In this document: positions 13,075-33,024 of the stretch, piece by piece
How the letters are laid out: every line of letters starts with the position of its first letter
Numbering within the stretch: position 1 is the stretch's first letter
Assembly: GCA_018266845.1 (NCBI GenBank)
Contig: JAFDZO010000005.1
Coordinates: forward strand, 1-64,000
Length of the DNA stretch: 64,000 nt
DNA from: Bacteroidota bacterium
GTDB lineage: Bacteria > Bacteroidota > Ignavibacteria > Tepidaquicellales > Tepidaquicellaceae
Direction: 5' to 3'
The notes under the pieces: generated by a model
Databases searched by the model: none
Seen by the model: the letters and a program-made list of their open reading frames with translations, nothing else
What the model was told of the DNA's origin: nothing
Made by a program: the position numbers and the translations under genes

Positions 13075-13092
13075 GTTAGGATTTTGTTAGGA
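13075..13092 (+). promoter_or_regulatory. GTTAGGA direct-repeat element, copy 1
   Basis: GTTAGGA-TTTT-GTTAGGA followed by eight to nine T and AATTG. Two 7-bp half-sites 11 bp apart resemble the architecture of OmpR/PhoB-family operators. It lies 488 bp before the start at 13581. Regulatory role is inferred from recurrence upstream of four large surface genes. Confidence 0.55.
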
Positions 13093-13129
13093 TTTTTTTT
13101 TAATTGTTCAATAGATTTTTCCATAAACA

Positions 13130-13179
13130 GAAATCCTGTTGTTCGTCTTGAGCGATTAATTCGGGCAGCGGGATTTTTT
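13130..13179 (+). terminator. Terminator-like hairpin in the upstream region of the 13581 gene
   Basis: AAATCCTGTTGTTCG pairs, with several G-U pairs, to CGGGCAGCGGGATTT, followed by TTTT. It lies 38 bp after the first GTTAGGA element and 383 bp after the previous stop. It may terminate the 11422 transcript or attenuate a long leader. Confidence 0.5.
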
Positions 13180-13580
13180 ATAAATATTTTAACATATTTT
13201 CGATAAACTGAATTAGTTAAAAATTCTCTTATCTCTTGTTACACCTGATTCACATTTCTCCCTTAGTACTATTCCGATTTTTATATGATATTTGTAAATA
13301 AAGCAATTGCTGAAATCATTACTAATTTTCAAGAAGGTTTTGAAAAAAGTTTTTATATCAGGAGAACTTACAGATTCAGGTTATAAGTTATGAATAGGTT
13401 TAAAATCGCATTACAAAGATTGATTTTTTATTAGAATATTAGCGATTTTATTTATAACTTATTGGTTTCGCTCCCGTTTTTAAAAAATCATTTTCACCGA
13501 AATTTAGAAAATAAAGTAATACTGGTTTAGAATACTTTTTAGAAATCTTCTTTAAATATTAACTAACTTAATTTCCTCAA

Positions 13581-16500
13581 ATGAAAAATCTAATCTCGAT
13601 TCTCTGCGTAGCGGCAGCATTGGTATTTTTTACCGGTGTGTCGAATGCGCAGATAAGTACGAATGGAAGTTCCGGGCTTGCAGGCAGTTACCCTGACTTA
13701 GCCAGCGCAATTACAGCCCTTAACGGAGCTACAATCACATCTCCGGTTATTATCTCCGTTGATGTCGGCAATCCTCAAACAGCGCCTGCCGGCGGTTATG
13801 TAATTACCGCAACAGGAACTGTAACAAATACGATTACCTTAACAGGTAACGGCAACACTATTACAGCCAACGCAGGACTTACGGCTGGAAATTTGAACGA
13901 TGCTATATTCAGATTAAGCGGCTCTGATTATGTTACCATTCAGGGTTTTTCCATGCAGGAAAACGCAGCTAATACAACAACTGCTGCGGCTACAAACAAT
14001 ATGACTGAATGGGGCGTTGCATTGCTTTATGCTTCAGCAACTGACGGCTGCCAAAATGTTACGATTCAGAACAACACTATTACTTTAAACAGGACGTATC
14101 AGAACACATTTGCTATTTATTCCAACTCCACGCATACTTTTGCAGCAGTTACAACATCAGTTCCTGCTACAGGGGCAACAGGCGGAAATCACAATCTTAA
14201 AATTTACGGAAACACAATTAGCAATGTTAACCAGGGTATTGTAGTTGTAGGTACTACTGCTGCTGCAGATCAGAATACAGGTTTAGATATCGGCGGGTCA
14301 AGTTTAGCGCAAGGTAACTCAATTACAAACTATGGCACTACAGGAACATTCTCCGCTTATGCTAACGTATCAGGAACAGTTAACGGAATTTTAATCAGGA
14401 ACTCAAACGGCTTTAACTGCTCATATAATACAGTAACAAGCTCTGTAGGCGGTGTAACAGCAGGTACATTGTATGGTATTCAGCAGGCGGCTGCAAGCGT
14501 TGTACCAACAACAACCTTTACTAATAACATTACTTACAACAGCATTTCATTAAAAAGCGGACTTGCTTCAGGAGCTATGAACGGTATAAACGTTCCGGCG
14601 GGTTCTGCAAGCACAACAAGTACTTTTAATATCACGAACAACGATTTTAATAATTTTGGTCATACAGTTTCGGGTACTGGGGTAATTACATATATTGTGA
14701 CCGCTTCTGTACACCTTAATACAACAATAAGTAACAACACTTTCACCAACATGACGGTTAATACTACCGGAAGTGTTACATTTATTTCTCAAACTTTTAC
14801 ACTTACTCTTGCAGGCGGAACAAAGACTGTAAGCGGAAACTCTATTGTAACCGGCTTCAGTAAAACAGGCGCAGGCGGTACTATTTTATGCGTTACTGAT
14901 AACGGCTCATCTACAACAGTCGTTCAATCAAATTGTACAAATAATAATTTCTCCAATATTACAGTTACAGGCGCAACAACTTTAACAGGCTTGAGCTATA
15001 CAGACGGCGGTACTGCTCCTTCAAGAACAGTTACAGGAAATACAATCAGCAACTGGACAGGCGGCACAAGCGCAATCAACTGTATGAACTTCACATACTG
15101 GAGCGGAAGCACATCTACTCTTAACACAAATACAATTTCTAATGTCACAGGACAAGGAGCTGTTACAGGAATTACTATCGGAAGTACAGTTATAACTGCA
15201 AATCCAATGTCTGTTTCCAATAATACAATTAATAACTTGTCTTCAACAGGTACAGGCGGAGCAGTAACAGGTATTACCTGCTCAAATACTTCTCCTGTTA
15301 TTAACATAAACGGAAATACTATTAACACCCTTTCTTCTACGGGAGCTTCTTTAGTAAGCGGTATTTCCGTTTCAGGAGCAACCAACACAAGCGTTTACAA
15401 AAATAAAATATACGATTTAACCGGAAGCAATGCATCATCAACAGTATCAGGTGTAACAGTTTCAGGCGGTACGTTGGTTTATATTTACAATAACCTTGTT
15501 GGAGATTTAAAAGCTCCTTCAGCTAACGCAGCTAACCCTGTAAATGGTATTAACATTTCAGGAGGTACAACTGTAAACGTAGCCAATAATACGGTTTACA
15601 TTGCTGCAGCAAGCGCCGGCGCATTATTCGGCTCATCTGCCATAAACGCTTCCACAACTCCCACTGTAACATTGAACAATAATATTTTTGTAAATAATTC
15701 TACGTCTAGCGGAGCAGGATTAACAGTTGCCTACAGAAGATCAACCACTACACTTACGACTTACGGTGCTTTATCAAACAATAACGACTTCTTTGCATCT
15801 ACAATTTTTACTGACGGTACTAACACAGATATTTTAATGTCGGCTTACAAAACAAGAGTTGCTTCAAGAGATGCAGCATCTTTCTCTGAAAGCCCTAACT
15901 TCAGAAGCACAGCAGGTTCAAACGCTAACTATCTGAAAATTGACTCAACAATTGCAACACAGTTAGAAGGAAGCGCCTCTATTATTTCTACACCTGCAAT
16001 CACATCGGACTATTACAACATTGCAAGATACCCGAATGCAGGATATCCGTTCAACGCAAGCTATCCGCCAACTGCGCCTGATATTGGCGCAAATGAGTTC
16101 GGCGGTATTCCGATTGACTTAGTTCCGCCTGTTATTACATATACGACTTTAAGCGCAACAGGAAGCACATCGGACAGAACACTTGCAAACGTGTCAATCA
16201 CTGATGCTTCAGGCGTTCCAACCACAGGCGCATTACAGCCAAGAATTTATTACAAGAAAAACGCAGGTTCATATTTTTCATCTCAAGGAAGTAAAACATC
16301 AGGTACGGGACAATCAGGAGTATGGAGCTTTACAATCGTTGCAGCTGATATGGGCGGTGTTGCAGCAGCAGATGTTATCAGCTACTTTGTAATTGCTCAG
16401 GATATAGCTCCGGGCGGACCGTTTATTTCTTCAACTCCCGGCGCAGGTTTAGTTGCAACAGATGTAAACACTGTTACAACTCCGCCGACAACTCCGAGTA

Positions 16501-19265
16501 CATATACAATTACCGCTCCTTCACTTTCAGGCTCATATACAATTGGTACAACATTATTCAGACCTGTAGGCGGCGGCAAATTGGAATTTGAAGCAAGAAC
16601 AAGAACAGTAAGAAAAGTTATTTCAAGCAAAACCGATTTCGCAACTGCAAAACAGGATGTAAAACCCGGAACACAGGTTGACGCTCCTGCAGCAGATTAC
16701 GAAGCCGATGTAACGGAAACATACTTTGTTCCTGTTGTAAACGGAAAAGAATATTCAGGCAGCTTATATCATGAATATACAAAAGAAGAAAAAACTCAAT
16801 TGGGCTTACCTGATAATATGGTCGGAGACTATGCAACACTTTCCGCTGCTATTACAGACCTTAATACAAGAGGTGTAGGCGGCGCAACAACATTTAGTTT
16901 AACGGATGCTTCGTACACTGAAGCTGCAACATTAACGATTTCTATAACCAATGAGGCAGTTACAACAGCATCTAACACTGTAACATTCAAGCCGGCTGCA
17001 TCAGTAACACCGACAATAACTGTTACCTCTACAGGTGTTGCAATAAACATTGCAAACAGCTATGTAACATTCGATGGTTCAAATTCCGGCGGAACTTCAA
17101 GAGATATGACTCTTATCAATGCCGGAGCCGGCGCAAACAGCGGATGCTTCTCTACAGGTTTCCCAAATGTTACAATTAAAAATATGAAAACGCAGTCAAC
17201 AAGTTTTTCAGTTGGCTATGGTATTTTATATAGCGGTGTAGCAGTAACATCCGGCACAATTCAGAATAACGATGTTCAGAAAGCTGTAATTGGAATTCAG
17301 ATTCAGGCTGGCACATCAAATGTTTCTATCACAGGAAACAGTATAGGAAGTGTTGACTCATTATCAAAGGTTACTAACGGCGGAATTATAGTGCTTTCAT
17401 CAACCAACTTCACAATTAATAATAATACTATAGTTGGAGTAAGCAGAAATGCAACAAATTCAACATCCGGTATTCAGATTGCGGTTTCAGGAAGCCCGTC
17501 CCCTTCCGGCGGAAATATCTACAACAATATTGTTTCCAATGTTAAACACTCTGGATTCAATTCTGCAGCTTATGCAGCATACGGTATTTATTTGGGAACA
17601 GATATTGCGTCTTCAAATATCTCTGTTTACAATAATTCCATTTATGATATTCTGACTCAGGGTGATGGCTCTACTGCAGGAACCACATATGCTCCGCACG
17701 GAATTTACATCGCAACAGGCGGCGGATACAAAATTTACTATAATAGTATTTCATTGTATGGCACAATCACTGACCCCGATGCAACAGCACTCAGAGGCGG
17801 ATGTATAACAGTTGAAGCAGGAACAAACGTAGGTACGCTTGATATTAGAAATAATATACTTCAGAACACACAAACAATGACTGTTCCAGCCGCAGTAAAG
17901 AAAACTTATGCGTTTATTTCAGTTGCTGCTAATACTGCTTACTCCAATTTAGATTACAATGATTATTATGTATCAGGTGTTGATGGCGTATTCGGATTTG
18001 CTAACAGCGCAGACCAATCAACAATAACCGCATGGAGAACATTTACAGGCAAAGATGTGAACTCTATTTCTACTGATCCGTTCTATGTATCTGCAACAAA
18101 CCTAACACCTCAAACTTACAATGTTAAAGGAAAAGGCTATCCGATTGCAACCGTATCAACCGATATTTTAGGAACGGCAAGAAGTACTTCTATAACAAAC
18201 GGACCTACTGACCCGGGAGCATATCAGTTTACGCCGGTATTTAATGCAGTTTCCACTATGGTTCAGTCAATCGTAGGCAATGGAACTTACGGATTTTCTT
18301 TCGGTGGAACAACTTACGGGTGGATTAACATTACCAACTATACAGGAGATATGGCAGCATTTGATATTTCATGGATTCACTATCAGGGTGTAAATCCTCC
18401 CGGCTCTGCAGGGCAGCAGTTCAATGCTGCTTATGACAGTATCTGGGTATCAAACGGTTCATTGGGCACTTCTACTTACGATGTGCAGATTTTCGTTCCG
18501 AAGAACAACTTGAGAAACATTGCAGATACAAACAACATTATCCTTGCAAAGAGCAATGACGGTGGCGCATCATGGAATGCTGCTCCGGGTACCACAAACG
18601 GTTACATCCCCGGAAACCCCGGTTTTGCTTATGCTAACGGACTTACTTCGTTCTCTCTCTTTGCTGTAACAAGCACTGATAATCCTTTACCTGTTGAGCT
18701 TGCTTCATTCACTTCTTTAATTGATAAGAGAAATGTTGAGCTGAAATGGTCAACTTCTAAAGAAGAGAACAATGCAGGATTTGATATTGAAAGAAAGCTA
18801 GTCAATGAAAACTCATGGTCAAAAGCAGGTAACATACAGGGAGCAGGAACTTCAAACACAGTGAAGAACTACAGCTTTGAAGACAGAAATCTTGCTTCAG
18901 GAAAATACAACTACAGACTAAAACAAATTGATTTCAACGGAAACCATAAATACTTCAATCTTTCAAGTGAAGTAGTAGTCGGCGTTCCGGCTAAGTTTGA
19001 GCTGAGCCAGAACTACCCGAATCCGTTCAACCCGTCAACAAAGATTAACTACGACCTGCCGTTCGATAGCAAGGTTCAGATTAAAGTCTTTGATATGACA
19101 GGCAGAGAGGTAGCGCAGATTGTGAACGAAACAAAGACTGCCGGATATTACACAGCGCAGTTCAATGCTTCGGCAATGGCAAGCGGTGTTTACTTCTATA
19201 CAATCACAGCTACAGGCGGAAGCCAGTCGTTTGTGAAGACAATGAAGATGGTTCTTGTGAAATAA
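13581..19265 (+). CDS. Giant secreted double parallel-beta-helix protein with T9SS sorting domain
   Basis: An 1894-aa protein with signal peptide MKNLISILCVAAALVFFTGVSNAQ. Residues about 25-790 and 1085-1540 are right-handed parallel beta-helix regions, with frequent N-N-T-I, N-I-I-x-N-N and I-x-N-N-N motifs. An Ig-like segment lies between them (about 795-960; YYKKNAGSY, VISYFVIAQD), followed by a basic linker (RTRTVRKVISS). Residues about 1555-1690 form a further beta domain (GTYGFSFGGTTYGWI). About 1700-1800 is an FnIII-like unit (ELASFTSLIDKRNVELKWS), and about 1805-1894 is the T9SS sorting domain. Beta-helices of this kind bind or cut polysaccharides or act as adhesins, and no catalytic residues were identified. 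Paralogue of the next gene. Confidence 0.96.
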   Translation: MKNLISILCVAAALVFFTGVSNAQISTNGSSGLAGSYPDLASAITALNGATITSPVIISVDVGNPQTAPAGGYVITATGTVTNTITLTGNGNTITANAGLTAGNLNDAIFRLSGSDYVTIQGFSMQENAANTTTAAATNNMTEWGVALLYASATDGCQNVTIQNNTITLNRTYQNTFAIYSNSTHTFAAVTTSVPATGATGGNHNLKIYGNTISNVNQGIVVVGTTAAADQNTGLDIGGSSLAQGNSITNYGTTGTFSAYANVSGTVNGILIRNSNGFNCSYNTVTSSVGGVTAGTLYGIQQAAASVVPTTTFTNNITYNSISLKSGLASGAMNGINVPAGSASTTSTFNITNNDFNNFGHTVSGTGVITYIVTASVHLNTTISNNTFTNMTVNTTGSVTFISQTFTLTLAGGTKTVSGNSIVTGFSKTGAGGTILCVTDNGSSTTVVQSNCTNNNFSNITVTGATTLTGLSYTDGGTAPSRTVTGNTISNWTGGTSAINCMNFTYWSGSTSTLNTNTISNVTGQGAVTGITIGSTVITANPMSVSNNTINNLSSTGTGGAVTGITCSNTSPVININGNTINTLSSTGASLVSGISVSGATNTSVYKNKIYDLTGSNASSTVSGVTVSGGTLVYIYNNLVGDLKAPSANAANPVNGINISGGTTVNVANNTVYIAAASAGALFGSSAINASTTPTVTLNNNIFVNNSTSSGAGLTVAYRRSTTTLTTYGALSNNNDFFASTIFTDGTNTDILMSAYKTRVASRDAASFSESPNFRSTAGSNANYLKIDSTIATQLEGSASIISTPAITSDYYNIARYPNAGYPFNASYPPTAPDIGANEFGGIPIDLVPPVITYTTLSATGSTSDRTLANVSITDASGVPTTGALQPRIYYKKNAGSYFSSQGSKTSGTGQSGVWSFTIVAADMGGVAAADVISYFVIAQDIAPGGPFISSTPGAGLVATDVNTVTTPPTTPSTYTITAPSLSGSYTIGTTLFRPVGGGKLEFEARTRTVRKVISSKTDFATAKQDVKPGTQVDAPAADYEADVTETYFVPVVNGKEYSGSLYHEYTKEEKTQLGLPDNMVGDYATLSAAITDLNTRGVGGATTFSLTDASYTEAATLTISITNEAVTTASNTVTFKPAASVTPTITVTSTGVAINIANSYVTFDGSNSGGTSRDMTLINAGAGANSGCFSTGFPNVTIKNMKTQSTSFSVGYGILYSGVAVTSGTIQNNDVQKAVIGIQIQAGTSNVSITGNSIGSVDSLSKVTNGGIIVLSSTNFTINNNTIVGVSRNATNSTSGIQIAVSGSPSPSGGNIYNNIVSNVKHSGFNSAAYAAYGIYLGTDIASSNISVYNNSIYDILTQGDGSTAGTTYAPHGIYIATGGGYKIYYNSISLYGTITDPDATALRGGCITVEAGTNVGTLDIRNNILQNTQTMTVPAAVKKTYAFISVAANTAYSNLDYNDYYVSGVDGVFGFANSADQSTITAWRTFTGKDVNSISTDPFYVSATNLTPQTYNVKGKGYPIATVSTDILGTARSTSITNGPTDPGAYQFTPVFNAVSTMVQSIVGNGTYGFSFGGTTYGWINITNYTGDMAAFDISWIHYQGVNPPGSAGQQFNAAYDSIWVSNGSLGTSTYDVQIFVPKNNLRNIADTNNIILAKSNDGGASWNAAPGTTNGYIPGNPGFAYANGLTSFSLFAVTSTDNPLPVELASFTSLIDKRNVELKWSTSKEENNAGFDIERKLVNENSWSKAGNIQGAGTSNTVKNYSFEDRNLASGKYNYRLKQIDFNGNHKYFNLSSEVVVGVPAKFELSQNYPNPFNPSTKINYDLPFDSKVQIKVFDMTGREVAQIVNETKTAGYYTAQFNASAMASGVYFYTITATGGSQSFVKTMKMVLVK

Positions 19266-19324
19266 ATTACGAATTACGAGTTGTAAGTAATTCATAAATT
19301 TGAAATCTGAAATTAGAAATAAAA

Positions 19325-19361
19325 ATGCTCTTGTTGAGAAATCGGCAAGAGCATTTTTTTT
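19325..19361 (+). terminator. Rho-independent terminator with GAAA tetraloop
   Basis: ATGCTCTTG and CAAGAGCAT pair, and the apex TTGA-GAAA-TCGG folds further into a GAAA tetraloop. Eight T follow. It lies 60 bp after the giant gene's stop. Confidence 0.88.
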
Positions 19362-19486
19362 AGCTTCTGTTCATTGCGCATTATTAATTGTTAATCGCTC
19401 CCCTTCTTGCCGCTAAAACACTAAATAGTTATCAGTTGCCGGTTTTCAGTTGTTAGTAATAGATTTAAAGTGTTTGATTTACATCC

Positions 19487-19543
19487 TGCATTCTGAATTC
19501 TGCATTCTGAATTCTGCATTCTGAATTCTGAATTCTGCATTCT
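19487..19543. repeat. Short tandem repeat, unit TGCATTCTGAATTC
   Basis: About four 14-bp units (TGCATTCTGAATTC), with one partial unit, run from 19487 to 19543. Slippage-prone; lies 18 bp before the GTTAGGA element. Confidence 0.8.
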
Positions 19544-19560
19544 AAAAATACTCGTTTTTT

Positions 19561-19578
19561 GTTAGGATTTTGTTAGGA
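19561..19578 (+). promoter_or_regulatory. GTTAGGA direct-repeat element, copy 2
   Basis: GTTAGGA-TTTT-GTTAGGA, preceded by CTCGTTTTTT and followed by AAATTTTTTTATT. It lies 288 bp before the start at 19867. Same 11-bp spacing as the other copies. Confidence 0.55.
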
Positions 19579-19866
19579 AATTTTTTTATTTTATTATATA
19601 ATTTTTAAAGAAATATTCCGGCTCTGCCAAAAAACTTTCTAAATCTCTAAGAAAGTATTTAACAACAATCTCACCTTTACTCTCTCTAAGAAAAATCTCA
19701 CGGAAAAAGTGTATCCAATTTGCAATCGGATTTTTCTTCCTCTAAGAAAAAAGAAATTCATATCTCAATTTTAAAAAATATCTCAAAATTTCCCCTATGA
19801 AGGAAACTGCGCGATGTATTTTTTAAAACTCTATTAAATTTTATTAATTAACCAACTTTTAACGAG

Positions 19867-22800
19867 ATGAAAAAAGTATTTTTTACATTTACTTTTATTT
19901 TAGCTTTTGCGCTTTTCGGCGGCAAAGTTTTCTCGCAGATTGCAGTTACGGTTACGAATCCGGGCAATACAACGCCTAATCTTTCGGCTTCGTACATATC
20001 TCTTGCAAATGCGCTGACTGATTTAAACAATGTAACGGCGATGACGGGTCCCGTTACGCTTACTCTCACAGCAGGCGGTTCCGAAACTGCGCCTCCGACC
20101 GGGCTTACAATCGGAAGCGCTACTCTTAATCCCGTGCTTAGTGCAACAAACACTGTTACGATTATTGTAACAGGCGGAACGGCAACACTAAATGCAGGCA
20201 TAGGAACTGCCACTCCCGGAAGCGCTGCCCCTGACGGAATTTTAAAAATCGTCGGAGCAGATTATATCACAATTGACGGAATGACTTTCACCGACGGCAA
20301 TGCATCGAATCCTGCAACGATGGAGTTCGGAGTTGCGCTTTTTAAGCAGGACTTATCTGACGGAGCGCAGAACAATACAATAAAAAATTGTACGTTCAAT
20401 ATGCAGAGGATAAATAATGCGGCGGGAACCTCCCCGATGGTTGACGGCGCAGTAGGCATACTCTGCATTAACTCCACGCCAACTGCTGCAACTACAGCAT
20501 TAGTTCCCACAACTGCAGCAGGCTCTAACAGCAATAATAAATTCTATACAAACACAATCAACAGCGGAAACATAAGCATTGCTATTATAGGTTACGCAGC
20601 AGCTACTCCTTTTACTGCTGCTGATTTCGGAAACGATGTCGGAGGCGCTTCGCTTACTACCGGAAATCAGATATTGAATTTCGGAGGCGGCGCAGCAACA
20701 AATCCTTCGGCTGGAATTAGAACGCTTGCGCAGTACAACCTCAACGTTTCCTACAATACAGTTAATAACAATAACGGAGGAGGTGTAAACCATGCAGCAA
20801 CACTCCGCGGCATTTATATAAATACTGCCACGAGCGCAAATGCTACAGTTTCAAATAACACAATCACTGTCAAAGGAGGCGGAACAACATCACAGGTTGC
20901 TGCCATTGAAAACGTTTCCGGCTCAACAGCAGCAGGCAATACTATTACGCTTTCAAACAACACAATCACAAACTGCACATATTCTACTGCTACAAGCGGA
21001 GTATTCTATGGGATTTATAATACTGCTTCACCGGCAAATTTGAACATGAGTTCAAACATTTTCTCAAACAATTCAACTTCTGCCACCAGCGGCTCGTATT
21101 ATCCGTTTTACAATTCAGGAACAGTTACCGTAAGCTCAAACTTCAACAACAACAGCGTTAACGGAGTAACTTTCTCGGCAGGAAGCAGCGCGATTTTCAG
21201 AGGAATTTATAACACCGGAGGCGGTTCAGCTTCAACATTGAATATTAACTCAAATAATTTTCAGTCAATCACATTTACGGGAGCGCAGACAGGAGAGTGT
21301 TCTTTTGTTTATTCTTCAGCCGCCGCTCTCACACAGACTATAAATTCCAATACGTTCACGAATCTGAATCTGAATTCAACTTCGGGAACTACATATTTAA
21401 TTTATAACAACATCACCTTGCCTGCTGCAGGAAGCGCGACAATAACCAGCAACTCAATTGTTACCGGGCTTACAAAAGCAGCGGGCGGAAGTTTATTTTT
21501 AATTTACAATAACGGAGGTTCCCCTTCCGGCACCACTGAAAACTGGAGCAATAATTCTTTTTCAAATATTACGTTAGCCGGAGCAACAACTTTCGGCGGA
21601 ATTCAAAATTCCGACGGAGGCGCGCCGACTAAAACCATTAGCGGAAACACCGTTTCAAATGTATCAGGAACAACAGGCGCTGCAACAGGTATGCTTGTTA
21701 CTTATGGTACTGCAACCATTTCAGGAAACACAATCACTAATATTTCCGCCGGCGGAACAGTTATTGGTATATCTGCCGGAAACTCTAGCACAACTTTACA
21801 AAATATTTCAGGAAATATTATTAATACCCTTTCATCTACAGGAGCTGCGGCTGTAACGGGAATTATCTCCTCCCCTTCCGGCACAAGCGCTGCATCTAAC
21901 ATTTTTAAAAACAAAATATCGAACCTTTCGGGAAGCAATGCAAGCTCTACTGTTACGGGTATTTCTATTACTTTAGGAACAACTACTACAGTTTATAATA
22001 ATATTCTCGGAGATTTGAGAACAACTGCTGCCAATGCAGCAAATCCGCTCGTCGGAATAGCCGTTTCAGGAGGAACAACAGTTAATCTCTACAATAATAC
22101 TGTATGGCTTAACGGAACAAGCGCAGGAGCGCTTTTCGGTTCAAGCGCAGTTTCGGCTTCAACTTCGCCTACATTAACGATGCGAAACAACCTGTTTGTA
22201 AATTTATCCACTCCAAGCGGAGCAGGCTTAACTGTTGCTTACAGAAGGTCATCATCAACTCTTACTACTTATGGAAGCGCGTCGAATAATAACTGTCTGT
22301 ATGCCGGAACTCCCGGGGCATCTAATTTATTATTCTATGACGGGACAAATTCAGAGCAGACAATCGCAGGTTATAAAACAAGAGTTTCACCGCGCGATAT
22401 TTCATCAATGACAGAAAACGTTACATTCAGAAGCACCAGCAGCGCCAGTGCTGATTTTCTAAAAATTGACTCCACTGTCTCTACGCAGTTGGAAAGTAAC
22501 GGACAGACAATCAGCACTCCTGCAATTACGAACGACTATTTTGATATTGCCAGATTTCCAAACGCCGGTTATCCCACAAATCCGGGTTTTACGGCGGTAG
22601 GACCCGATGTAGGAGCGCATGAATTCGGCGGAGTACAGCTTGATTTGAACGGACCGAATATTTCCTACACTGCGTTACTTAATACAGGCAGCACGGGAGA
22701 CAGAAGTTTGACAGCCGTTATCACAGACGCATCAGGAGTTGCAGGCGGAGCAAATATTCCAAGATTATATTATAAAAAATCAACCGATGTAAGTTATCAG

Positions 22801-25740
22801 GTTGATGCAGTCCCCGCTGTCTTGGGAACAAACTATACATGGAACATCAGCGCGGCAGCAATGGGAGGATTAGCCGCAGGAGATACAGTTAAATACTACG
22901 TGGCTGCTCAGGATATTTCAGGCAATCTTACCACAAATCCGGCAGGAGGAAGCGGCACAAATCCCCCGGGAACAACTGCTCCTTCTTCTGTTAACTCATA
23001 CTATATAACTGGTGCTTCACTTAGCGGAGATTATAATGTCGGATTGGCTATGTTCAACAGAATTTCAGGGCTGAATCTTAAAATGGAGAAGTTTACCCGT
23101 AAAGTAATAAAAGATGTTGAAGTTCAGCAGGATGCCCCTGTATTGCCAAAAGACGGCAAATCTGCAATTACGATAGAAGAATTTTCCGCTTATCCAAAAA
23201 ACACAGTGAAGCAGGAAGTAACGGAAGAATTCTGGGCACCTTCTCTCAACGGAAAAATTTACGATGGTCCGCAATACGCTTTCAGCAGCGCAGATAACGT
23301 TGGGGCTTACTCAACAATAGCGGCGGCAATAACCGACCTGAACTTAAGAGGCGTTGCCGGTCCTACGCGTTTTCTTTTGACCGATGCTTCTTATACAGAG
23401 GCAGCTTCGATGACAATTGCAATTACAAACGAAGCGGTTCCAACTGCAACTAATACTGTTACAATTAAACCTGCGCCTTTGGCTGCTCCTTCCGTTACGG
23501 TAAACAGCACAAGCCCGGTATTTATTGTTTCCAGCCAGTATGTTATTTTTGACGGCTCGAACACAAACAACGGAACGACCAGAGACCTCACTCTCACAAA
23601 CTCCGGCGCGGGAGCTTCGAGCGGTGTCATCTTTTCAACTGCTGCAAACACTGTTATCAAAAACCTGAAAGGGCTTTCAAGCGGTTTTGCTATCGGATAC
23701 GGAATTGTTTTATCCGGTGTCTCCAATGGAACAGTAACTAACTGCGATATACAAAAAGCTCTAATTGGAATACAGGCGCAAGCCGGCTCTAACAATATTA
23801 CGTTCTCAAACAATAGCGTAGGAAGCGTTGATTCATTATTCAAAGTTCAAAACGGCGGAATCCTTGTGCTTTCTTCAACTAACTTTACTGTTTCAGGCAA
23901 TACCATTGTAGGTGTAAGCAGAAATGCAACTGCCGGAACGTCTGGTATTTTTGTAGGTAACAGCGGCGCGCCGTCGGCTGCTAACGGCACAATTTATAAC
24001 AACAATATTTCTAACGTAAAGCACTCCGGCTACAACGGAAGCGCTTACTCTGCTTACGGAGTTTACCTCGGAACAGACTTAGCTTCGTCAGGAATTACAG
24101 TTTACAATAATTCAATCTATGATATTTACAGCCAGAGCGATGGCTCTACCGGCACAGGTACTGCCTATACTCCGCATGGAATTTACATCGCAACAGGCGG
24201 CGGATATTCAATCTATTACAATAGTATTTCTTTATACGGTCAGATTACTGACCCTGATGCTTCACCCGTAAGGTCGGGCTGTATCACAGTGGAAGCGGGA
24301 GCAAACGTAGGAACACTTGATATTAGAAATAATATACTTCAGAATACACAGACAATGCTTGTTACCGGAGCAACAAAAAAAACTTATGCGTTTATTTCAA
24401 TTGCTGCCAATACTGCATACTCCAATTTAGATTACAATGATTATTATGTATCGGGAGCGGATGCAATACTCGGATATGGAAGCTCTGCTGACCAGTTAAC
24501 AATTTATACATGGAGAACATTTACAGGAAAAGATGTAAACTCTATTTCAACTGACCCGTTCTTCACATCTGCAACAAACCTTACGCCTCAAACATGGGCA
24601 GTTAACGGAAGAGCTATTGCTATATCATCCGTAAGCACTGATATTTTAGGCGCTGCAAGAAACACTACCATTTCAGCAGGACCAAACGACCTTGGAGCTT
24701 ATGAATTCACTCCGGTATTTAATGCCGTTGCTACAATGGTGCAGACAATTACAGGCAACGGAACATACGGATTTTCATTCGCTGGAACAACTTATGGATG
24801 GATTACAATTACGGGATATACGGCTGAAGCTGCGTTCGATATTTCGTGGATTCACTATCAGGGTGTAAATCCTCCCGGAGCAACTACCCAGCAATATAAT
24901 GCTGCTTATGACAGCATCTGGGTATCGAACGGTTCATTAGGCACTTCTACTTACGATGTGCAAATTTTCGTTCCGAAAAATAACTTGAGAAACATTGCTG
25001 ATACAACTCATATCATTCTTGCTAAGAGCAATGACGGAGGCGCATCATGGAATGCTGCTCCGGGTACTTCTAACGGATACAATCCCGGCAATCCCGGCTT
25101 TGCTTACGCTAACGGACTTACTTCGTTCTCACTCTTTGCTGTAACAAGCACTGATAATCCGTTACCTGTTGAGCTTGCTTCATTCACTTCTTTAATTGAT
25201 AAGAGAAATGTTGAGCTGAAATGGTCAACTTCTAAAGAGGAGAACAATGCAGGATTTGATATTGAAAGAAAACTTGTAAGTGAAAATACTTGGTCAAAAG
25301 TTGGCAGCATTCAGGGAGCAGGAAACTCAAATACTGTAAAGAATTATAACTTTGTTGATAACAATGTAATGACAGGAAAATACAACTACAGACTAAAACA
25401 AATTGATTTCAACGGAAACCATAAATACTTCAATCTTTCAAATGAAGTTGTAGTAGGCGTTCCGGCTAAGTTTGAACTGAGCCAGAACTACCCGAATCCG
25501 TTCAATCCGTCAACAAAGATTAACTACGACCTGCCGTTCGACAGCAAGGTTCAGATTAAAGTCTTTGATATGACAGGCAGAGAAGTAGCGCAGATTGTGA
25601 ACGAAACAAAGACTGCCGGATATTACACAGCGCAGTTCAATGCTTCGGCAATGGCAAGCGGTGTTTACTTCTATACTATCACAGCTACAGGCGGAAGCCA
25701 GTCATTTGTGAAGACAATGAAGATGGTTCTTGTGAAATAA
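19867..25740 (+). CDS. Giant secreted double parallel-beta-helix protein with T9SS sorting domain (paralogue of the 13581 gene)
   Basis: A 1957-aa protein with signal peptide MKKVFFTFTFILAFALFGGKVFSQ. It has the same domain order as the upstream paralogue: first beta-helix (about 30-850), Ig-like segment (YYKKSTDVSY, DTVKYYVAAQD), basic linker, second beta-helix (about 1150-1600), a beta domain, an FnIII-like unit and the T9SS sorting domain (about 1870-1957). The first helix has diverged considerably. From the second helix onward the proteins become very similar, and the last ~190 residues are nearly identical at DNA level too. The downstream sequence is also homologous, so the duplication included the 3' end. 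Probable adhesin or polysaccharide-interacting protein; enzyme activity not shown. Confidence 0.96.
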   Translation: MKKVFFTFTFILAFALFGGKVFSQIAVTVTNPGNTTPNLSASYISLANALTDLNNVTAMTGPVTLTLTAGGSETAPPTGLTIGSATLNPVLSATNTVTIIVTGGTATLNAGIGTATPGSAAPDGILKIVGADYITIDGMTFTDGNASNPATMEFGVALFKQDLSDGAQNNTIKNCTFNMQRINNAAGTSPMVDGAVGILCINSTPTAATTALVPTTAAGSNSNNKFYTNTINSGNISIAIIGYAAATPFTAADFGNDVGGASLTTGNQILNFGGGAATNPSAGIRTLAQYNLNVSYNTVNNNNGGGVNHAATLRGIYINTATSANATVSNNTITVKGGGTTSQVAAIENVSGSTAAGNTITLSNNTITNCTYSTATSGVFYGIYNTASPANLNMSSNIFSNNSTSATSGSYYPFYNSGTVTVSSNFNNNSVNGVTFSAGSSAIFRGIYNTGGGSASTLNINSNNFQSITFTGAQTGECSFVYSSAAALTQTINSNTFTNLNLNSTSGTTYLIYNNITLPAAGSATITSNSIVTGLTKAAGGSLFLIYNNGGSPSGTTENWSNNSFSNITLAGATTFGGIQNSDGGAPTKTISGNTVSNVSGTTGAATGMLVTYGTATISGNTITNISAGGTVIGISAGNSSTTLQNISGNIINTLSSTGAAAVTGIISSPSGTSAASNIFKNKISNLSGSNASSTVTGISITLGTTTTVYNNILGDLRTTAANAANPLVGIAVSGGTTVNLYNNTVWLNGTSAGALFGSSAVSASTSPTLTMRNNLFVNLSTPSGAGLTVAYRRSSSTLTTYGSASNNNCLYAGTPGASNLLFYDGTNSEQTIAGYKTRVSPRDISSMTENVTFRSTSSASADFLKIDSTVSTQLESNGQTISTPAITNDYFDIARFPNAGYPTNPGFTAVGPDVGAHEFGGVQLDLNGPNISYTALLNTGSTGDRSLTAVITDASGVAGGANIPRLYYKKSTDVSYQVDAVPAVLGTNYTWNISAAAMGGLAAGDTVKYYVAAQDISGNLTTNPAGGSGTNPPGTTAPSSVNSYYITGASLSGDYNVGLAMFNRISGLNLKMEKFTRKVIKDVEVQQDAPVLPKDGKSAITIEEFSAYPKNTVKQEVTEEFWAPSLNGKIYDGPQYAFSSADNVGAYSTIAAAITDLNLRGVAGPTRFLLTDASYTEAASMTIAITNEAVPTATNTVTIKPAPLAAPSVTVNSTSPVFIVSSQYVIFDGSNTNNGTTRDLTLTNSGAGASSGVIFSTAANTVIKNLKGLSSGFAIGYGIVLSGVSNGTVTNCDIQKALIGIQAQAGSNNITFSNNSVGSVDSLFKVQNGGILVLSSTNFTVSGNTIVGVSRNATAGTSGIFVGNSGAPSAANGTIYNNNISNVKHSGYNGSAYSAYGVYLGTDLASSGITVYNNSIYDIYSQSDGSTGTGTAYTPHGIYIATGGGYSIYYNSISLYGQITDPDASPVRSGCITVEAGANVGTLDIRNNILQNTQTMLVTGATKKTYAFISIAANTAYSNLDYNDYYVSGADAILGYGSSADQLTIYTWRTFTGKDVNSISTDPFFTSATNLTPQTWAVNGRAIAISSVSTDILGAARNTTISAGPNDLGAYEFTPVFNAVATMVQTITGNGTYGFSFAGTTYGWITITGYTAEAAFDISWIHYQGVNPPGATTQQYNAAYDSIWVSNGSLGTSTYDVQIFVPKNNLRNIADTTHIILAKSNDGGASWNAAPGTSNGYNPGNPGFAYANGLTSFSLFAVTSTDNPLPVELASFTSLIDKRNVELKWSTSKEENNAGFDIERKLVSENTWSKVGSIQGAGNSNTVKNYNFVDNNVMTGKYNYRLKQIDFNGNHKYFNLSNEVVVGVPAKFELSQNYPNPFNPSTKINYDLPFDSKVQIKVFDMTGREVAQIVNETKTAGYYTAQFNASAMASGVYFYTITATGGSQSFVKTMKMVLVK

Positions 25741-25821
25741 ATTACGAATTTCAAATTACGAGTTGCGAGTTGTAAGTGATTCAAAAATTTGAAATCTGAA
25801 ATTAGAAATTTGAGATAAAAA

Positions 25822-25858
25822 AGCTCCTGTTGGTGAAAACCGGCAGGAGTTTTTTTTT
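25822..25858 (+). terminator. Rho-independent terminator with GAAA tetraloop
   Basis: CTCCTGTTGGT-GAAA-ACCGGCAGGAG forms a long stem closed by a GAAA tetraloop, then nine T. The core is almost the same as at 39369-39406. Confidence 0.9.
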
Positions 25859-26027: not shown

Positions 26028-29000
26028 ATGAAAAAAATTTTACTAATTCTCCCAATACTACTGCTGACAGCGCAGATTAGTTACTCACAATATATTTTCG
26101 AAACTTTCGAAAGCTCATGGTTAAGTACACCCGAAGCTCCCTTCGGATGGACACAATCAAGAGAGGTGCTCGTCGGGAACGGCACTCCCGACGGCATTTC
26201 TACAACTACCGGTGAAAAAGACTGGCAAAGAAACGTCAATACAGGAACCGGCACATGGGAGCTTAGTCCTTCAAGTCCGGGAATAGTCCCGAACTCGGCA
26301 ATTTCAGGAACAGGCGCAGCATGGCTTCAGAATAGAAATTTTGGAAGCTCATCACTTAACTGGGGTTCAAGAAGATTAGAGTCGCCTTCAGTTAACCTTT
26401 CAAGCTCAGCATTTCCTTATATAAGCTTTTGGATGTTCTACGCAGATAACAGCGAAACTCAAAATCTCAGAATAACAGGCTCGACTGACGGAGGCGCAAC
26501 TTGGCTGAATATTCAGCAAGTCGTTCCCAACTTTGTTGAAACAGGAACACCGACAGGCGCTACCGGCTGGTCAAGAATAACAGTTGCCGTGCCTGCTGCA
26601 TTTAAAGCCTCAGGTGTAAAATTTGGAATAGAAGTAACTTCGATATTGGGTGATAATAATATTTTCATTGATGATTTCTCTGTTATTGAGTTCACTCCTA
26701 ACTCTATCATTTCAACAGGCAGCGGCGGCTTATGGAGTTCCCCTTCTACATGGGCAGGCGGCATTGTGCCTACGGCAAATGATAATGTTACAATAGAAGC
26801 AGGCGCTACCGTTACAATAGATGTGAACACTGCAAGAACACAATTACTTTTTGTAAAAGGAAAACTGCAATATGCAGATGCGGCATCTACACAGGTGCTT
26901 CAGGCTTTTGGAAATTTAGTATTAGCCGTAGGGGCGGAGTTTAATTCATTTGGCGGAAGCAATGCGAAAAAAACATGTGTAGGAGGAAACATTATAAATG
27001 CAGGAACAATTGATTTCGGTATGTCTGCAACATCAACAAGTGAATCTTCACTATTATGGCTGGGATACGGACCTTATACATTTACGAACAGCGGTACAAT
27101 TAAGTATGGAAAAATAAATTCTATGTGGTGTGCTGTTACACAGGGAGTTACATTCAATTCTGACGTAACAGTATCGTTCAGATTTGTTTTGGGCTTGGGC
27201 ACAGTAACTCCCAACGGCAAGCTGACGCTTGGGCTTTCAACATCAAACGACTTAATGCTTATCGAGAGATTAAAAGGCAGTTTTGCAGCTGCACCGATAT
27301 TTGCTTCCGGTGTAAACAGGTATGTCGGCTACCATGACGGCAGCGGAGTTGGCGGAACTTCTTTTTACCAGATAGCGCCGTGCAACAGAATCACACAAAC
27401 TCCGGGTGAAGAAATTGAATCAGTTTCCGGCACAAGAACAGTAACGGGCGGACTCGGAATTTTAACGCACGGAAAGTTACAGCTTGCTTATCCTTTAACT
27501 CTCGGAACGCCTTCATATTCTACATCGCTGACACTTTTGAGAGGCATATTGCAAACAGACAGTATTAACATACTAAGAATTTCTTCAAACGTTTCCATAC
27601 CTACGGGCACAGACCCCAGCACTGCAACACCTCCGACAAATCACGGTTCATACATTGCAGGTCCGTTAAGAATAGATTTTCCTAATAGCACATCAGCCAG
27701 AAGATTTCCGGTAGGCGCAGGAACTGAATTGAATCTATCCTCCCCTAATGCAAACAGAATATTATACTTTACATTAAACACAACAGTATCGTGGACATCA
27801 GGAACTTCGCTCACTGTCTCTGTGGTGCCTAAGCCATCCGGCTTGGCTAACTCGCCCCTTACTTATGTAATGGGAACAAGAGCTTACAAAATAACTTTAA
27901 ATGGAGGTCCTGACCTTCCTACAGCCGTTTATATTTCGGGTTTACGCGGAAGCAACTATACCTACGGAGATAAAAGCGGAAGTGACAGTTTAAAAGGAAA
28001 AAGGGAGAATTTGCTTATTGCGCAGTCGCCTTCCCTTACGGGACCTTGGACAGTCCGTTCAGTTGCCGTCGGCTCAGGCGCAATAACAAACAATTCCATC
28101 TATTCACAAAATACTTCTGCAAGTTCTCCCGGTCCTATAAGTCCTCTGAATACAAACGGCAGTTATTTTGCGTGGGCAACCAATGCAGTTTTAGCGGAAA
28201 TTTCTGCAAGGTCATTAGCGCCTTCCGGTAAAGTTTATTATCATTCGCTTTCTACAACTATTCCAATGACAGGAACAATAAAAAATGAGGGTACAGGCGC
28301 AACATTATCTGAGGTAAATGTTACGCGAAAGATAATCGGAACTGCATACAGCAGCACAATCAGCATCCCGGCAGGTATTGAACCCGGCTCCATAATAAAT
28401 ACAAATTTCAGTGATTTTACAGGATGGGCATCGAACGTAACTTATCAAATCAAGGACTCCGTTTATTACCCCGGAGATACAGACGTTACTAATGATACAA
28501 ACTCCGTTTTCTTTACTCCCGCTATTCCAAAAGCTATTATGATAAATTACGGCGGAGATACAAGAAGCAGAGATTCTATAGTTGTTCACATGGCAAATCT
28601 CGGTTTGGGTTCTGAATACGATTTAGTATCGTCATTCCCAAATTTCCCTCTTAGCGCGTGGAGAACAATTATATGTTTTGCAAGCAGTGCAAGCAGCATA
28701 GGAGCAAGTGTGAGAGATTCACTAAAGCTGTGGCTTGACGGCTCTTCTTCATCGGCAAAAAGAAGTCTTGTAGTTTTTGGAAATGATTTAGGTTATGGAA
28801 TGGACCCAAGAAGCGACCCCGCTGCACCCGCTGCTGATACAGTTTTTTATAGGCAATATCTTCGCGCGGCTTTTTTGGAAGACTCATGGGTTAGCGCTTT
28901 CAATCCGGCGGATAGCACTTTAAAAGGAATAAACGGCTCCCCGTGGACTTCAATTACTGCGCAGAGAATAAACGACCCGTATCCTGATTTAATTCAGCCC

Positions 29001-29807
29001 GCAACCTGGAACAACGCAGGCGGAACTCTTCAGAGCGTTTTGATTCCCATTACAGAATCAGGCAACGGTGATTCCTGCGCTGCAATTGCTTTCAACGGAA
29101 CGAATTACAACACCTTCTATATGTCTAATCAATACTACGGTATTGTGCCGACTGTCTCAGGCGCGCTCTCTCCGCAGGGAGTTGTATTGAACGTAATAAA
29201 AACTTATATAGAAAATGCAGGAGGAATTTACCCTGTTGAGCTTGCTTCATTCACTTCATCAATTGATAAGAGAAATGTTACATTAAAATGGAGCACAAAC
29301 AACGAAGAGAATAATGCAGGATTTGATATTGAAAAAAGAGTATCAGGAACAGGCGAATGGAATAAAGCAGGTAATGTTGCAGGCGCAGGAAATTCAAACA
29401 CAATTAAGAATTATACTTTCTCCGAAAATAATCTCGCTACAGGAAGATACCAATACAGATTAAAACAAATGGACTTTAACGGAAACTACAAGTATTATGA
29501 ATTAGGAAACGAAGTGATAATAGGAGTTCCTGCAAAGTTTGAATTGAGCCAGAACTACCCTAATCCGTTTAACCCAAGCACAAAGATTAATTTTGACCTG
29601 CCGTTCGATAGCAAGGTTCAGATTAAAGTCTTTGATATGACGGGCAGAGAAGTAGCGCAGATTGTGAACGAAACAAAGACTGCGGGATATTACACAGTTC
29701 AGTTCAATGCTTCGGCAATGGCAAGCGGAGTTTACTTCTATCAGATACAGGCGGCGGGCGGAAATAATTCGTTTGTGAAGACAATGAAGATGGTCTTAGT
29801 GAAATAG
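26028..29807 (+). CDS. Secreted multidomain protein (choice-of-anchor J, G8-like, GATase1-like, FnIII-like, T9SS sorting domain)
   Basis: A 1259-aa protein, signal peptide about 1-20. Residues about 22-225 resemble a choice-of-anchor J/MAM-like jelly roll (ETFESSW at the start, W-L-Q-N-R, IFIDDFSVIE at the end). About 227-420 begins with a G8-like motif (STWAGGIVPTANDNVTIEAG) and continues as a beta-rich region. About 832-1064 is a Rossmann-like domain (IMINYGGDTRSRDSIVVHM, S-L-V-V-F-G-N-D-L-G-Y, DTVFYRQYLRA) reminiscent of GATase1-like folds, with no Cys at the nucleophile-elbow position. About 1066-1166 is FnIII-like and about 1168-1259 is the sorting domain. It pairs with the 30399 gene, and the pair is repeated as 33107 plus 37105. 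Substrate unknown. Confidence 0.95.
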   Translation: MKKILLILPILLLTAQISYSQYIFETFESSWLSTPEAPFGWTQSREVLVGNGTPDGISTTTGEKDWQRNVNTGTGTWELSPSSPGIVPNSAISGTGAAWLQNRNFGSSSLNWGSRRLESPSVNLSSSAFPYISFWMFYADNSETQNLRITGSTDGGATWLNIQQVVPNFVETGTPTGATGWSRITVAVPAAFKASGVKFGIEVTSILGDNNIFIDDFSVIEFTPNSIISTGSGGLWSSPSTWAGGIVPTANDNVTIEAGATVTIDVNTARTQLLFVKGKLQYADAASTQVLQAFGNLVLAVGAEFNSFGGSNAKKTCVGGNIINAGTIDFGMSATSTSESSLLWLGYGPYTFTNSGTIKYGKINSMWCAVTQGVTFNSDVTVSFRFVLGLGTVTPNGKLTLGLSTSNDLMLIERLKGSFAAAPIFASGVNRYVGYHDGSGVGGTSFYQIAPCNRITQTPGEEIESVSGTRTVTGGLGILTHGKLQLAYPLTLGTPSYSTSLTLLRGILQTDSINILRISSNVSIPTGTDPSTATPPTNHGSYIAGPLRIDFPNSTSARRFPVGAGTELNLSSPNANRILYFTLNTTVSWTSGTSLTVSVVPKPSGLANSPLTYVMGTRAYKITLNGGPDLPTAVYISGLRGSNYTYGDKSGSDSLKGKRENLLIAQSPSLTGPWTVRSVAVGSGAITNNSIYSQNTSASSPGPISPLNTNGSYFAWATNAVLAEISARSLAPSGKVYYHSLSTTIPMTGTIKNEGTGATLSEVNVTRKIIGTAYSSTISIPAGIEPGSIINTNFSDFTGWASNVTYQIKDSVYYPGDTDVTNDTNSVFFTPAIPKAIMINYGGDTRSRDSIVVHMANLGLGSEYDLVSSFPNFPLSAWRTIICFASSASSIGASVRDSLKLWLDGSSSSAKRSLVVFGNDLGYGMDPRSDPAAPAADTVFYRQYLRAAFLEDSWVSAFNPADSTLKGINGSPWTSITAQRINDPYPDLIQPATWNNAGGTLQSVLIPITESGNGDSCAAIAFNGTNYNTFYMSNQYYGIVPTVSGALSPQGVVLNVIKTYIENAGGIYPVELASFTSSIDKRNVTLKWSTNNEENNAGFDIEKRVSGTGEWNKAGNVAGAGNSNTIKNYTFSENNLATGRYQYRLKQMDFNGNYKYYELGNEVIIGVPAKFELSQNYPNPFNPSTKINFDLPFDSKVQIKVFDMTGREVAQIVNETKTAGYYTVQFNASAMASGVYFYQIQAAGGNNSFVKTMKMVLVK

Positions 29808-29854
29808 ACTTTCGTTATTCGTTAATTGTTGTACGAATAACTCATAATTAGAAA

Positions 29855-30228: not shown

Positions 30229-30246
30229 GTTAGGATTTTGTTAGGA
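30229..30246 (+). promoter_or_regulatory. GTTAGGA direct-repeat element, copy 3
   Basis: GTTAGGA-TTTT-GTTAGGA, then a run of T and AATTG as in copy 1. It lies 152 bp before the start at 30399. Confidence 0.55.
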
Positions 30247-30398
30247 TTTTTTTTTAATTGTATCATTAAATCAATATTTCAATTCTGGCAAGAAAGCATA
30301 TCATAGTTGACCATAAAGTCTCATAAAATTTTGCCGCATTCCTTTTTTCCGGAAGGAATAGAATTAATTTTTTTTTAAACTAAACCAGACGTCCTCTA

Positions 30399-32567
30399 AT
30401 GAAAAAAACATTACTGTTTATTTTTTTGCTTAGCGCAGTATTCGGACTCAAAGCGCAATATAAATTATCCGAAGATTTCTCAAGCGGAACCTTCCCGCCA
30501 ACAGGCTGGAACAGAGGTCCCGGACTCGATGACAGCGGAAACCCTGTTTGGACACGCTCCTCACAAAGCGGTTACGCTTCAGGAACCGGCTCAGCTTTTT
30601 GCTATTTTTATAACTGGACTGCCGGAACTGACTCATTAATTTCGCCGTCTTTTACAGCAACTTCTTCAACCGATACTCTGTATTTTGACCATGCTTACAG
30701 AACGTACCAAACTGAAGTTGATAACTTGAACGTGTTTACATCCACGGATAATGGAGCATCATGGACTTTACTTCAGAATCTGCCCGGCGGAACAACTGTC
30801 GGAACAGGTATGGTAACGGCAGCAGCTTCTACTGGAAACTTTATAACGCCGACTGCCGGACAGTGGCTCACTAAAAAATATGTCCTGACAGCGGGAATTA
30901 ACAGAATCAAATTTGAAGTAATTACTGCTTTTGGTAATAACCTTTTCTTAGATAACATTAAGGTCGGGCAGCCGCCTTCAATTGACGTGGCAGTTCAGTC
31001 ACTTGGCTTAACAGGTATTTCATTTGCGACAGGCGCAGGCTCGGTAGCTCCTTCTGGAACAGTTATAAATAACGGCGGTTCAGATGCAACTTTTACAGTA
31101 ACAAGAAAAATTTCTCCCGGCGGATACTCAAGCACAAAAACCGTAACTGCATTAGCTCCAAACGCTACGCAGGTAGTTACTTTTGATAACTGGGATTATT
31201 CCACAGGAATTACTTACACAATTAAAGATTCTGTTTACCTCGCAGGCGATGTAAACCCGGCTAACGACGTTTTATCTGGTACATTGACTTATAATCTTCC
31301 GAAAAACATTCTCATTTTTAATGTGCATCAGCAAAGCGTTGACTCTATGACGGCGCATTTAAACCTTGCAGGACTTTCAGGTCAGTATGACGTTATTACT
31401 TCGTATCCCGGTATTAGTCTTGGTAACTGGAGAACCATTATGATAGGTTTTCAAAGCGGCGGCGGCTGGGCAGCAGCTTTAAGAGATTCGCTAAAAGCCT
31501 ATTTGGACGGCTCATCTTTGCCTAATGTTAGAAGTCTCTTAATTTTTGGTAATGATTTAGGATACAACTATGACCCGAGAAGAAATGTGAGCGCAGCTGC
31601 CGGAGATACTGTATTCTACAGACAGTACCTTCATGCCCAATACTGGTCAGATGCCTGGACAACTAACTTCCCTGCTTCTGATAGTACTTTAATGGGTATT
31701 GTTTCTCCATTCACTTCAATTACAGGACAAAGAGTCAGAGACCAGTTTCCAGATAACGTAGCTCCTGCTACATGGAATACCGGTTCAGGTGTTTTAACAT
31801 CAGCGTTAATTCCTGTTACAGAGTCTGGCGATGGTGATTCATGCGGAGCTATTGCTTATGCAGGAAATTACAATGTTTTCTATGGCACAAATGTTTATAG
31901 CAATTACGTGCCTACAATAAGCGGAGTATTATCACCGCAAGGCGTTATCTTTAATATTGTAAGAACCTATCTTGAAAATAACAACGGACAATTACCTGTC
32001 GAACTTGCTTCATTCACGGCATCAGTTGATAGCAGAAAAGTTACTTTAAACTGGTCAACAGCTTCTGAGGAAAACAACGCAGGATTTGAAATAGAAAGAA
32101 AACTTGCAAGCGCAACTGTATGGACTAACGCAGGACACGTATCAGGCGCAGGAACTTCCAACACAGTTAAGAACTACACTTTCACCGATAACAATCTTGC
32201 AACAGGAAAATATAACTACAGACTGAAACAAGTTGATTTCAACGGTAACTACAAGTATTACAATTTATCCAATGAAATTAATATCGGCGTTCCTAACAAA
32301 TTTGCTTTAAGCCAGAACTATCCGAATCCGTTTAACCCGGCAACAAGAATCAATTATGACCTGCCTTTCGACAGTAAGGTAAGCATTAAGATATTTGACA
32401 TTACAGGAAAAGAAGTTTCTTCTCTTGTAAACACGGTTCAGCCGGCAGGATATTATACAATCAGCTTCAACGCCTCTGCTCTTTCAAGCGGTGTTTACTT
32501 CTATCAGATAAATGCAGAAGGAAGCCAGAGCTTTACAAAGACAATGAAGATGATGCTTGTTAAATAA
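30399..32567 (+). CDS. Secreted choice-of-anchor J / GATase1-like protein with T9SS sorting domain
   Basis: A 722-aa protein with signal peptide MKKTLLFIFLLSAVFGLKAQ. Residues about 22-195 form a MAM/choice-of-anchor J-like domain (EDFSSGTFPPTGW, FLDNIKVG). About 200-295 is CARDB/Ig-like (S-G-T-V-I-N-N-G-G, ITYTIKDSVY). About 300-527 is the Rossmann/GATase1-like domain (SLLIFGNDLGYNYDPR, DTVFYRQYLHAQYW, VTESGDGDSCGAIAY). About 530-628 is FnIII-like and about 630-722 the sorting domain ending KMMLVK. It is the short partner of the 26028 gene. The same architecture recurs at 37105. Function unknown. Confidence 0.95.
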   Translation: MKKTLLFIFLLSAVFGLKAQYKLSEDFSSGTFPPTGWNRGPGLDDSGNPVWTRSSQSGYASGTGSAFCYFYNWTAGTDSLISPSFTATSSTDTLYFDHAYRTYQTEVDNLNVFTSTDNGASWTLLQNLPGGTTVGTGMVTAAASTGNFITPTAGQWLTKKYVLTAGINRIKFEVITAFGNNLFLDNIKVGQPPSIDVAVQSLGLTGISFATGAGSVAPSGTVINNGGSDATFTVTRKISPGGYSSTKTVTALAPNATQVVTFDNWDYSTGITYTIKDSVYLAGDVNPANDVLSGTLTYNLPKNILIFNVHQQSVDSMTAHLNLAGLSGQYDVITSYPGISLGNWRTIMIGFQSGGGWAAALRDSLKAYLDGSSLPNVRSLLIFGNDLGYNYDPRRNVSAAAGDTVFYRQYLHAQYWSDAWTTNFPASDSTLMGIVSPFTSITGQRVRDQFPDNVAPATWNTGSGVLTSALIPVTESGDGDSCGAIAYAGNYNVFYGTNVYSNYVPTISGVLSPQGVIFNIVRTYLENNNGQLPVELASFTASVDSRKVTLNWSTASEENNAGFEIERKLASATVWTNAGHVSGAGTSNTVKNYTFTDNNLATGKYNYRLKQVDFNGNYKYYNLSNEINIGVPNKFALSQNYPNPFNPATRINYDLPFDSKVSIKIFDITGKEVSSLVNTVQPAGYYTISFNASALSSGVYFYQINAEGSQSFTKTMKMMLVK

Positions 32568-32624
32568 TTTTATACCTACACTCTCTTAAAAATACGAGAA
32601 CAGAGAGAAGTGCAGAAACAAAAG

Positions 32625-32660
32625 AAGCTCCCGCGTGAATGAGGCGGGAGCTTTTTTTTT
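32625..32660 (+). terminator. Rho-independent terminator
   Basis: AGCTCCCGC and GCGGGAGCT form a perfect 9-bp stem around GTGAATGAG, then nine T. It lies 58 bp after the 30399 gene. Confidence 0.9.
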
Positions 32661-32704
32661 GCAGTATGGATAAAATCTTGCTTACCCGAAGCTCTTACAG
32701 AACC

Positions 32705-32983
32705 TTATCACACACCAAAAATTTTTCTTAAAAAACTGAATTTAACCGCAAAGATGCAAAGTTTTTGGTAAAGCACTCAAAAATATAATATATTTTTCCT
32801 AAATATCTTAAACATAAAACTAATTGCGATTTAATGCCTGTTTTGGCTGAACAATTTCGAGCTTGAGAGATTATATTTTGAGTTCATTTTTAAGGTCTTT
32901 GCGGATTTTGCTGTCATATTTTGCGTTCTTCGCAGTTAAATTCATATTTACAAGTTTTAAAAGTTTTTTCCCGTGTGGTGAAA
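32705..32983. mobile_element. MITE-like imperfect palindrome, copy 1
   Basis: The left end (TTATCACACACCAAAAATTT, then GAATTTAACCGCAAAGATG) is the imperfect reverse complement of the right end (TTTCACCACACGGG..., then GAATTTAACTGCGAAGAACG when read from the other strand). Internal segments (CTCAAAAATATAATAT and its counterpart) also pair. The same element is at 53737-54009. There is no transposase, so it would be non-autonomous. Boundaries are approximate. Confidence 0.65.
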
Positions 32984-33006
32984 TTCAGAACTAAAACCGT
33001 ATTTTT

Positions 33007-33024
33007 GTTAGGATTTTGTTAGGA
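33007..33024 (+). promoter_or_regulatory. GTTAGGA direct-repeat element, copy 4
   Basis: GTTAGGA-TTTT-GTTAGGA, preceded by CCGTATTTTT and followed by nine T and AATT. It is 82 bp before the start at 33107, the closest of the four copies to its gene. Confidence 0.6.

Follow-up and report, generated by a model that had tools for sequence, protein, structure and literature searches.

A direct-repeat element with features of a promoter operator precedes a subset of T9SS cargo genes in an Ignavibacteria family

The closest described counterparts of the element analysed here are operators of the OmpR/PhoB class. PHO boxes are built of 7+4 units (PMC4415409), and PhoP of M. tuberculosis (Mtb) needs two 7-bp repeats with a spacer of exactly 4 bp (PMC4832192). 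The Salmonella PhoP box in architecture I has its half-site, (T/G)GTTTA, directed toward the promoter and placed 12 nt, about one helical turn, upstream of the -10 box (PMC3335776). Within the Bacteroidota, the most conserved motif of PhoP of Riemerella anatipestifer, an OmpR-class regulator, is TTTAACA (PMC9603813). Two-component control tied to the type IX secretion system (T9SS) is known from PorX/PorY-SigP, whose targets are sigP and genes of the secretion machine (porT) (PMC8265659, PMC4800418), and a PorX sequence, CG(A/C)AAAAA-N5-T(T/A)TCTTTGC, has been proposed in P. gingivalis (PMC8265659).

The present element, GTTAGGA-TTTT-GTTAGGA, resembles PHO boxes and the Mtb PhoP site in being a pair of 7-bp direct repeats spaced 4 bp apart (the unit TCCTAACAAAA twice in reverse complement), and resembles PHO boxes in overlapping the position of the upstream promoter box. 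It differs from the PHO boxes of relatives in pointing the opposite way, in its shorter distance to the downstream -7 box (7-8 bp as against about 10 bp) and in preceding T9SS cargo rather than phosphate genes. With the Salmonella PhoP box it shares a half-site directed toward the promoter from about one helical turn upstream, here TGTTAG at an 11-bp period, 9-10 nt before TA, but it differs in half-site bases, phylum and target genes. Riemerella PhoP is likewise a response regulator within the Bacteroidota, and the reverse complement of its motif is TGTTAAA; it is, however, a global regulator with hundreds of sites, and no role in switching T9SS cargo is described for it (PMC9603813). The element does not look like a PorX-SigP target: it is unlike the proposed PorX sequence, and the PorX-like protein, found in 10 of 10 genomes examined whether or not they carry the element, does not track its presence. 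No description of the element came up in the literature searches; its geometry is of a known kind, while its target set and orientation are, as far as could be found, new.

The direct repeat in the window and in related genomes

The window, the whole 64,000-nucleotide stretch of DNA that was analysed, contains four exact matches to the 18-mer, all on the + strand (13075..13092, 19561..19578, 30229..30246 and 33007..33024), against 0.10 expected at three or fewer mismatches; shuffled window sequence never gave four. The original prediction had described four identical 18-bp copies, each intergenic and in the same orientation before a T9SS cargo gene, and all four copies agree with it. Copy 1 lies 488 bp before a gene for a 1894-aa protein with a signal peptide and Por_Secre_tail (13581..19265), copy 2 lies 288 bp before a gene for a 1957-aa protein with a beta-helix and Por_Secre_tail (19867..25740), copy 3 lies 152 bp before a gene for a 722-aa protein (30399..32567) and copy 4 lies 82 bp before a gene for a 1253-aa protein with a MAM-like region and Por_Secre_tail (33107..36868), all on the + strand. 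Each of the four products begins with a signal-peptide-like sequence and carries Por_Secre_tail at a score over the cut-off. Two further + strand cargo genes in the same cluster (26028..29807 and 37105..39276) lack an element of their own; the former may be expressed by read-through or from another promoter. Since nearly every large window gene tested encodes T9SS cargo, the window alone cannot show enrichment; the genome- and family-wide searches do.

Beyond some 12 bp on the upstream side and 18 bp on the downstream side, the flanks of the window copies are 25-37% identical, i.e. random, which excludes one long duplicated intergenic segment, an origin that the original prediction had itself named. 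Of the T-rich tail and C-rich 5' flank also predicted, the first stood and the second did not. Among 47 copies aligned from the family, T directly precedes the element in 47 and directly follows it in 42, T-rich surroundings being a family-wide feature, and C reaches at most 15 of 47 in any column. Short tandem GAATTCTGCATTCT repeats lie directly upstream of copy 2 (19485-19545). Three cluster cargo genes are followed by related sequence, ATTACGAATT..GAGTTGTAAGT..TTTGAAATCTGAAATTAGAAAT, and then by a terminator-like hairpin (19266-19360, 25741-25850 and 36869-36970).

The proposed genome-wide search at two mismatches gave eight exact and two one-mismatch copies in the host assembly (G000, 3.53 Mb), and the reversed-pattern control gave none. 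At three mismatches, matches were indistinguishable from noise (15 in total, compared with 14 for the reversed pattern in G000); the element therefore has sharp limits. All host copies lie 39-488 bp before the start of a cargo-type gene. Among 99 relatives searched, the element was found in 10 of the 29 family genomes, spread over six genera, and essentially nowhere among the roughly 70 relatives outside the family. The richest genomes, counted at two or fewer mismatches, were G000 and G001 (10 copies each), G017 (7), G014 (6, all in 28 kb) and G021 (5). Named records with the element are Ignavibacteria or Ignavibacteriae MAGs and one Bacteroidetes MAG; other named hits, isolated single copies in unrelated phyla, appear to be chance matches. 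In the variants GTTAG is kept, and the sixth base is changed to A (GTTAGAA) in some genera. One genome (G024, L034 1501-1551) has five GTTAGAA units in an array with an 11-bp period before a cargo-type gene, with a -7-like box after it. Two similar-looking sequences were set aside: reversed-sequence matches in G005, AGGATTGTTTCAGGATTG, lie within an unrelated dyad repeat without cargo context, and GTTAGGAGTTAGAA arrays in G019 and its relatives are 7-bp tandem repeats (e.g. G019:C13:28566-28740 and other places in G019). Inspection by eye revealed no evident substitute repeat before related cargo genes in element-free genomes.

Operator geometry and candidate regulators

The reading that we favour, with somewhat better than even confidence, is that the element is an OmpR/PhoB-class operator lying within the core promoters of a particular group of T9SS cargo genes. 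A winged-helix response regulator of this class, activated by its kinase, would bind the repeat head-to-tail as a dimer, substitute for a missing -33 contact and recruit RNA polymerase, so that about ten of at least 150 cargo genes would be switched on together. In this reading, a two-component regulator probably docks at the element.

The operator architecture was part of the original prediction, and the geometry bears it out for a putative regulator. The two half-sites have an 11-bp period (7+4), and when GTTAGGA pairs 0-24 bp apart were collected from element-bearing genomes, the spacer was 4 bp for almost all of them and, among true sites, for every one. Rows of three or four units are also bound by Mtb PhoP, comparable to the five-unit array of G024. 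Near-identical half-sites occur in PHO boxes of relatives. A sister family has a triple 11-bp repeat, TCTTAAC AAAA TCTTAAC AATT CCCTAAC, between phoR-like kinase and pstS-like genes, and two members of the host family with such genes have the same type of box, e.g. ATCTAAC AATT CCCTAAC ACAA TTCTAAC with TATTTTTG 10 bp later. The units TCTTAAC, CCCTAAC and TTCTAAC are close to TCCTAAC, the reverse complement of the element half-site; on its other strand, TCCTAACAAAA TCCTAACAAAA, the cargo element is nearly a PHO box turned round relative to the promoter. This opposite direction counts against the OmpR/PhoB reading. The direction of the element agrees, however, with architecture I of Salmonella PhoP, and direction alone therefore does not decide. 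The element does not appear to belong to a Pho regulon: no such site precedes the PstS-like genes of G000 and G001 that were inspected (L197, L198), and all element copies precede cargo-type genes. The triple PHO boxes of the sister family (L017, L018 and L020, around position 1500) are themselves a candidate Pho regulon motif for the order.

Regulators of two classes, OmpR and LytTR, were surveyed. We place the regulator in the OmpR class with somewhat better than even confidence. G000 and G001 each have two OmpR-class regulators, and only a PhoB-like one is common to both; KdpE-like and CpxR-like regulators were rejected, each being absent from one of these two richest genomes. The most likely regulator would therefore be the PhoB-like response regulator encoded beside a histidine kinase gene in the host (contig C7, L154 5882-7690), an assignment reached by elimination within the OmpR class and held at slightly less than even confidence. 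Its orthologues are present in 29 of 29 family genomes, so that at least one OmpR-class regulator exists wherever the element occurs. The two do not co-occur strictly, in that 19 family genomes have the regulator without the element, although strict co-occurrence is expected only if the element is the regulator's sole target. The recognition helix DRTVDVHVAKVREKL is the same or nearly so in PhoB-like regulators of element-free family genomes, and the PhoB-like proteins of G004 (element-free) and G018 (element-bearing) are almost the same. No element-like site was seen at the regulator's own operon, which also counts against this candidate.

It is also possible, though we think it unlikely, that the same promoter operator is bound by a protein of another class, such as a BldC-like MerR or an AraC-type protein, encoded by a gene that would be gained and lost together with the element. 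The failure of the OmpR candidate to track presence and absence of the element favours such a protein, and BldC assembles on direct repeats in cooperative multimers (PMC5859096). Against it, the OmpR class is indicated by the precise 7+4 layout, by a spacer of constant length and by the almost identical half-sites of PHO boxes in relatives; LytTR regulators are excluded, there being none in five element-bearing genomes (G010, G012, G014, G018 and G021).

Placement relative to the -7 box

The Bacteroidota -7 element is TAnnTTTG, with TTTG near -33 (PMC7366714). In the window, -7-like boxes begin 8 bp after each copy on the + strand: TAATTGTT (13101..13108), imperfect relative to TAnnTTTG, after copy 1; TATTTTAT (19587..19594) after copy 2; TAATTGTA (30255..30262), also imperfect, after copy 3; and TAATTTAT (33033..33040) after copy 4. 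The imperfection of the box in the four window copies counts against a promoter-operator reading. The 47 aligned copies share the repeat, a conserved upstream T run and a TTAnnTT box at a fixed downstream place; TAnnTT starts 7-8 bp 3' of the element in 38 of them, whereas shuffled downstream sequence gave a mean of 3.8 and a maximum of 10. Across 464 upstream regions without the element, TTG peaks 20 bp before TAnnTTTG (9 occurrences versus a mean of 1.9), and the lineage thus appears to use a -33 box. With the -7 box 7-8 bp downstream, the repeat covers the -33 region. At the usual place of the -33 TTG the element has TAG, a triplet that is part of the search pattern, so that only its phasing is independent evidence; the substitution suggests a promoter that would need help. 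The position of the repeat is approximately that of a class II activator, and the bound protein may activate transcription.

A repressor operator would occupy the same place: a protein bound just upstream of the -7 box would block RNA polymerase and keep the cargo genes silent until a signal arrives. Overlap of the element with the core promoter region is in keeping with this, but repression does not require loss of the -33 TTG, where the element has TAG (with the same restriction to phasing), and we regard it as improbable. Far less probable is an element acting in the mRNA leader, where its two AGGA motifs could resemble CsrA sites or a ribosome-binding signal. Orientation is conserved and the copies lie upstream of start codons, in keeping with such an element; yet the distance to the start codon ranges from 39 to 574 bp, as against a fixed 7-8 bp to the -7 box, and this spacing puts the transcription start downstream of the element. 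No Rfam family scored over threshold in the window. Least probable is a recombination or mobile-element footprint (a terminal repeat, or a phase-variation or cassette-shuffling site), which would fit identical repeats lying between the large surface genes of tandem clusters but not the unshared flanks, the lack of inverted partner copies in the window, the conserved -7 box and direction, or the occurrence of the same element, with diverged flanks, ahead of related genes of three genera (62-76% identity).

A subset of T9SS cargo genes

Downstream genes were examined for 50 distinct sites, obtained by removing duplicates and counting one tandem array once. None of the 50 lies inside an ORF of at least 150 aa, location mostly within genes being the other outcome against which the original prediction had been set, and all 50 share one direction, toward the downstream gene. 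The T9SS C-terminal signature, SGxYFY...KKMxLxK, ends 38 of the 39 full-length downstream genes; the predicted enrichment before sorting-domain genes was thus found. The sole full-length gene without the domain encodes 1027 aa (G017, L107, element at 7880). Together with the lack of a long duplication, these counts support the regulon of surface proteins first proposed. Each genome has at least 150 Por_Secre_tail matches, and the element therefore marks a small subset of the cargo. Judged from these sequences, it is a promoter element that would define a T9SS cargo sub-regulon.

Two subtypes of the T9SS sorting domain were distinguished. One has a hairpin about four residues longer, often with a PFDSKV strand, and is concentrated in element clusters of G000, G001 and G014. 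In the examined stretches of these genomes, the long-hairpin subtype was found in 18 of 22 element genes versus 9 of 46 element-free cargo genes (Fisher p 2e-6, a value overstated because the genes are partly paralogous neighbours). Element targets in G017 and G021, which belong to other genera, carry the short subtype. A coupling of promoter class to sorting-signal class is a speculative proposal, one that we doubt more than we believe, in which a single surface coat would be turned on by a two-component system devoted to it, its cargo perhaps with a docking route of its own.

Described regulation of the T9SS concerns mainly the secretion machine, in Porphyromonas, and we found no described regulator of surface proteins in this lineage. 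The repeat would be a sequence-defined promoter element, conserved across genera and serving a selected part of the cargo, a tenth at most, and it yields a short list of giant surface proteins that are probably co-expressed, together with a testable candidate for their regulator.
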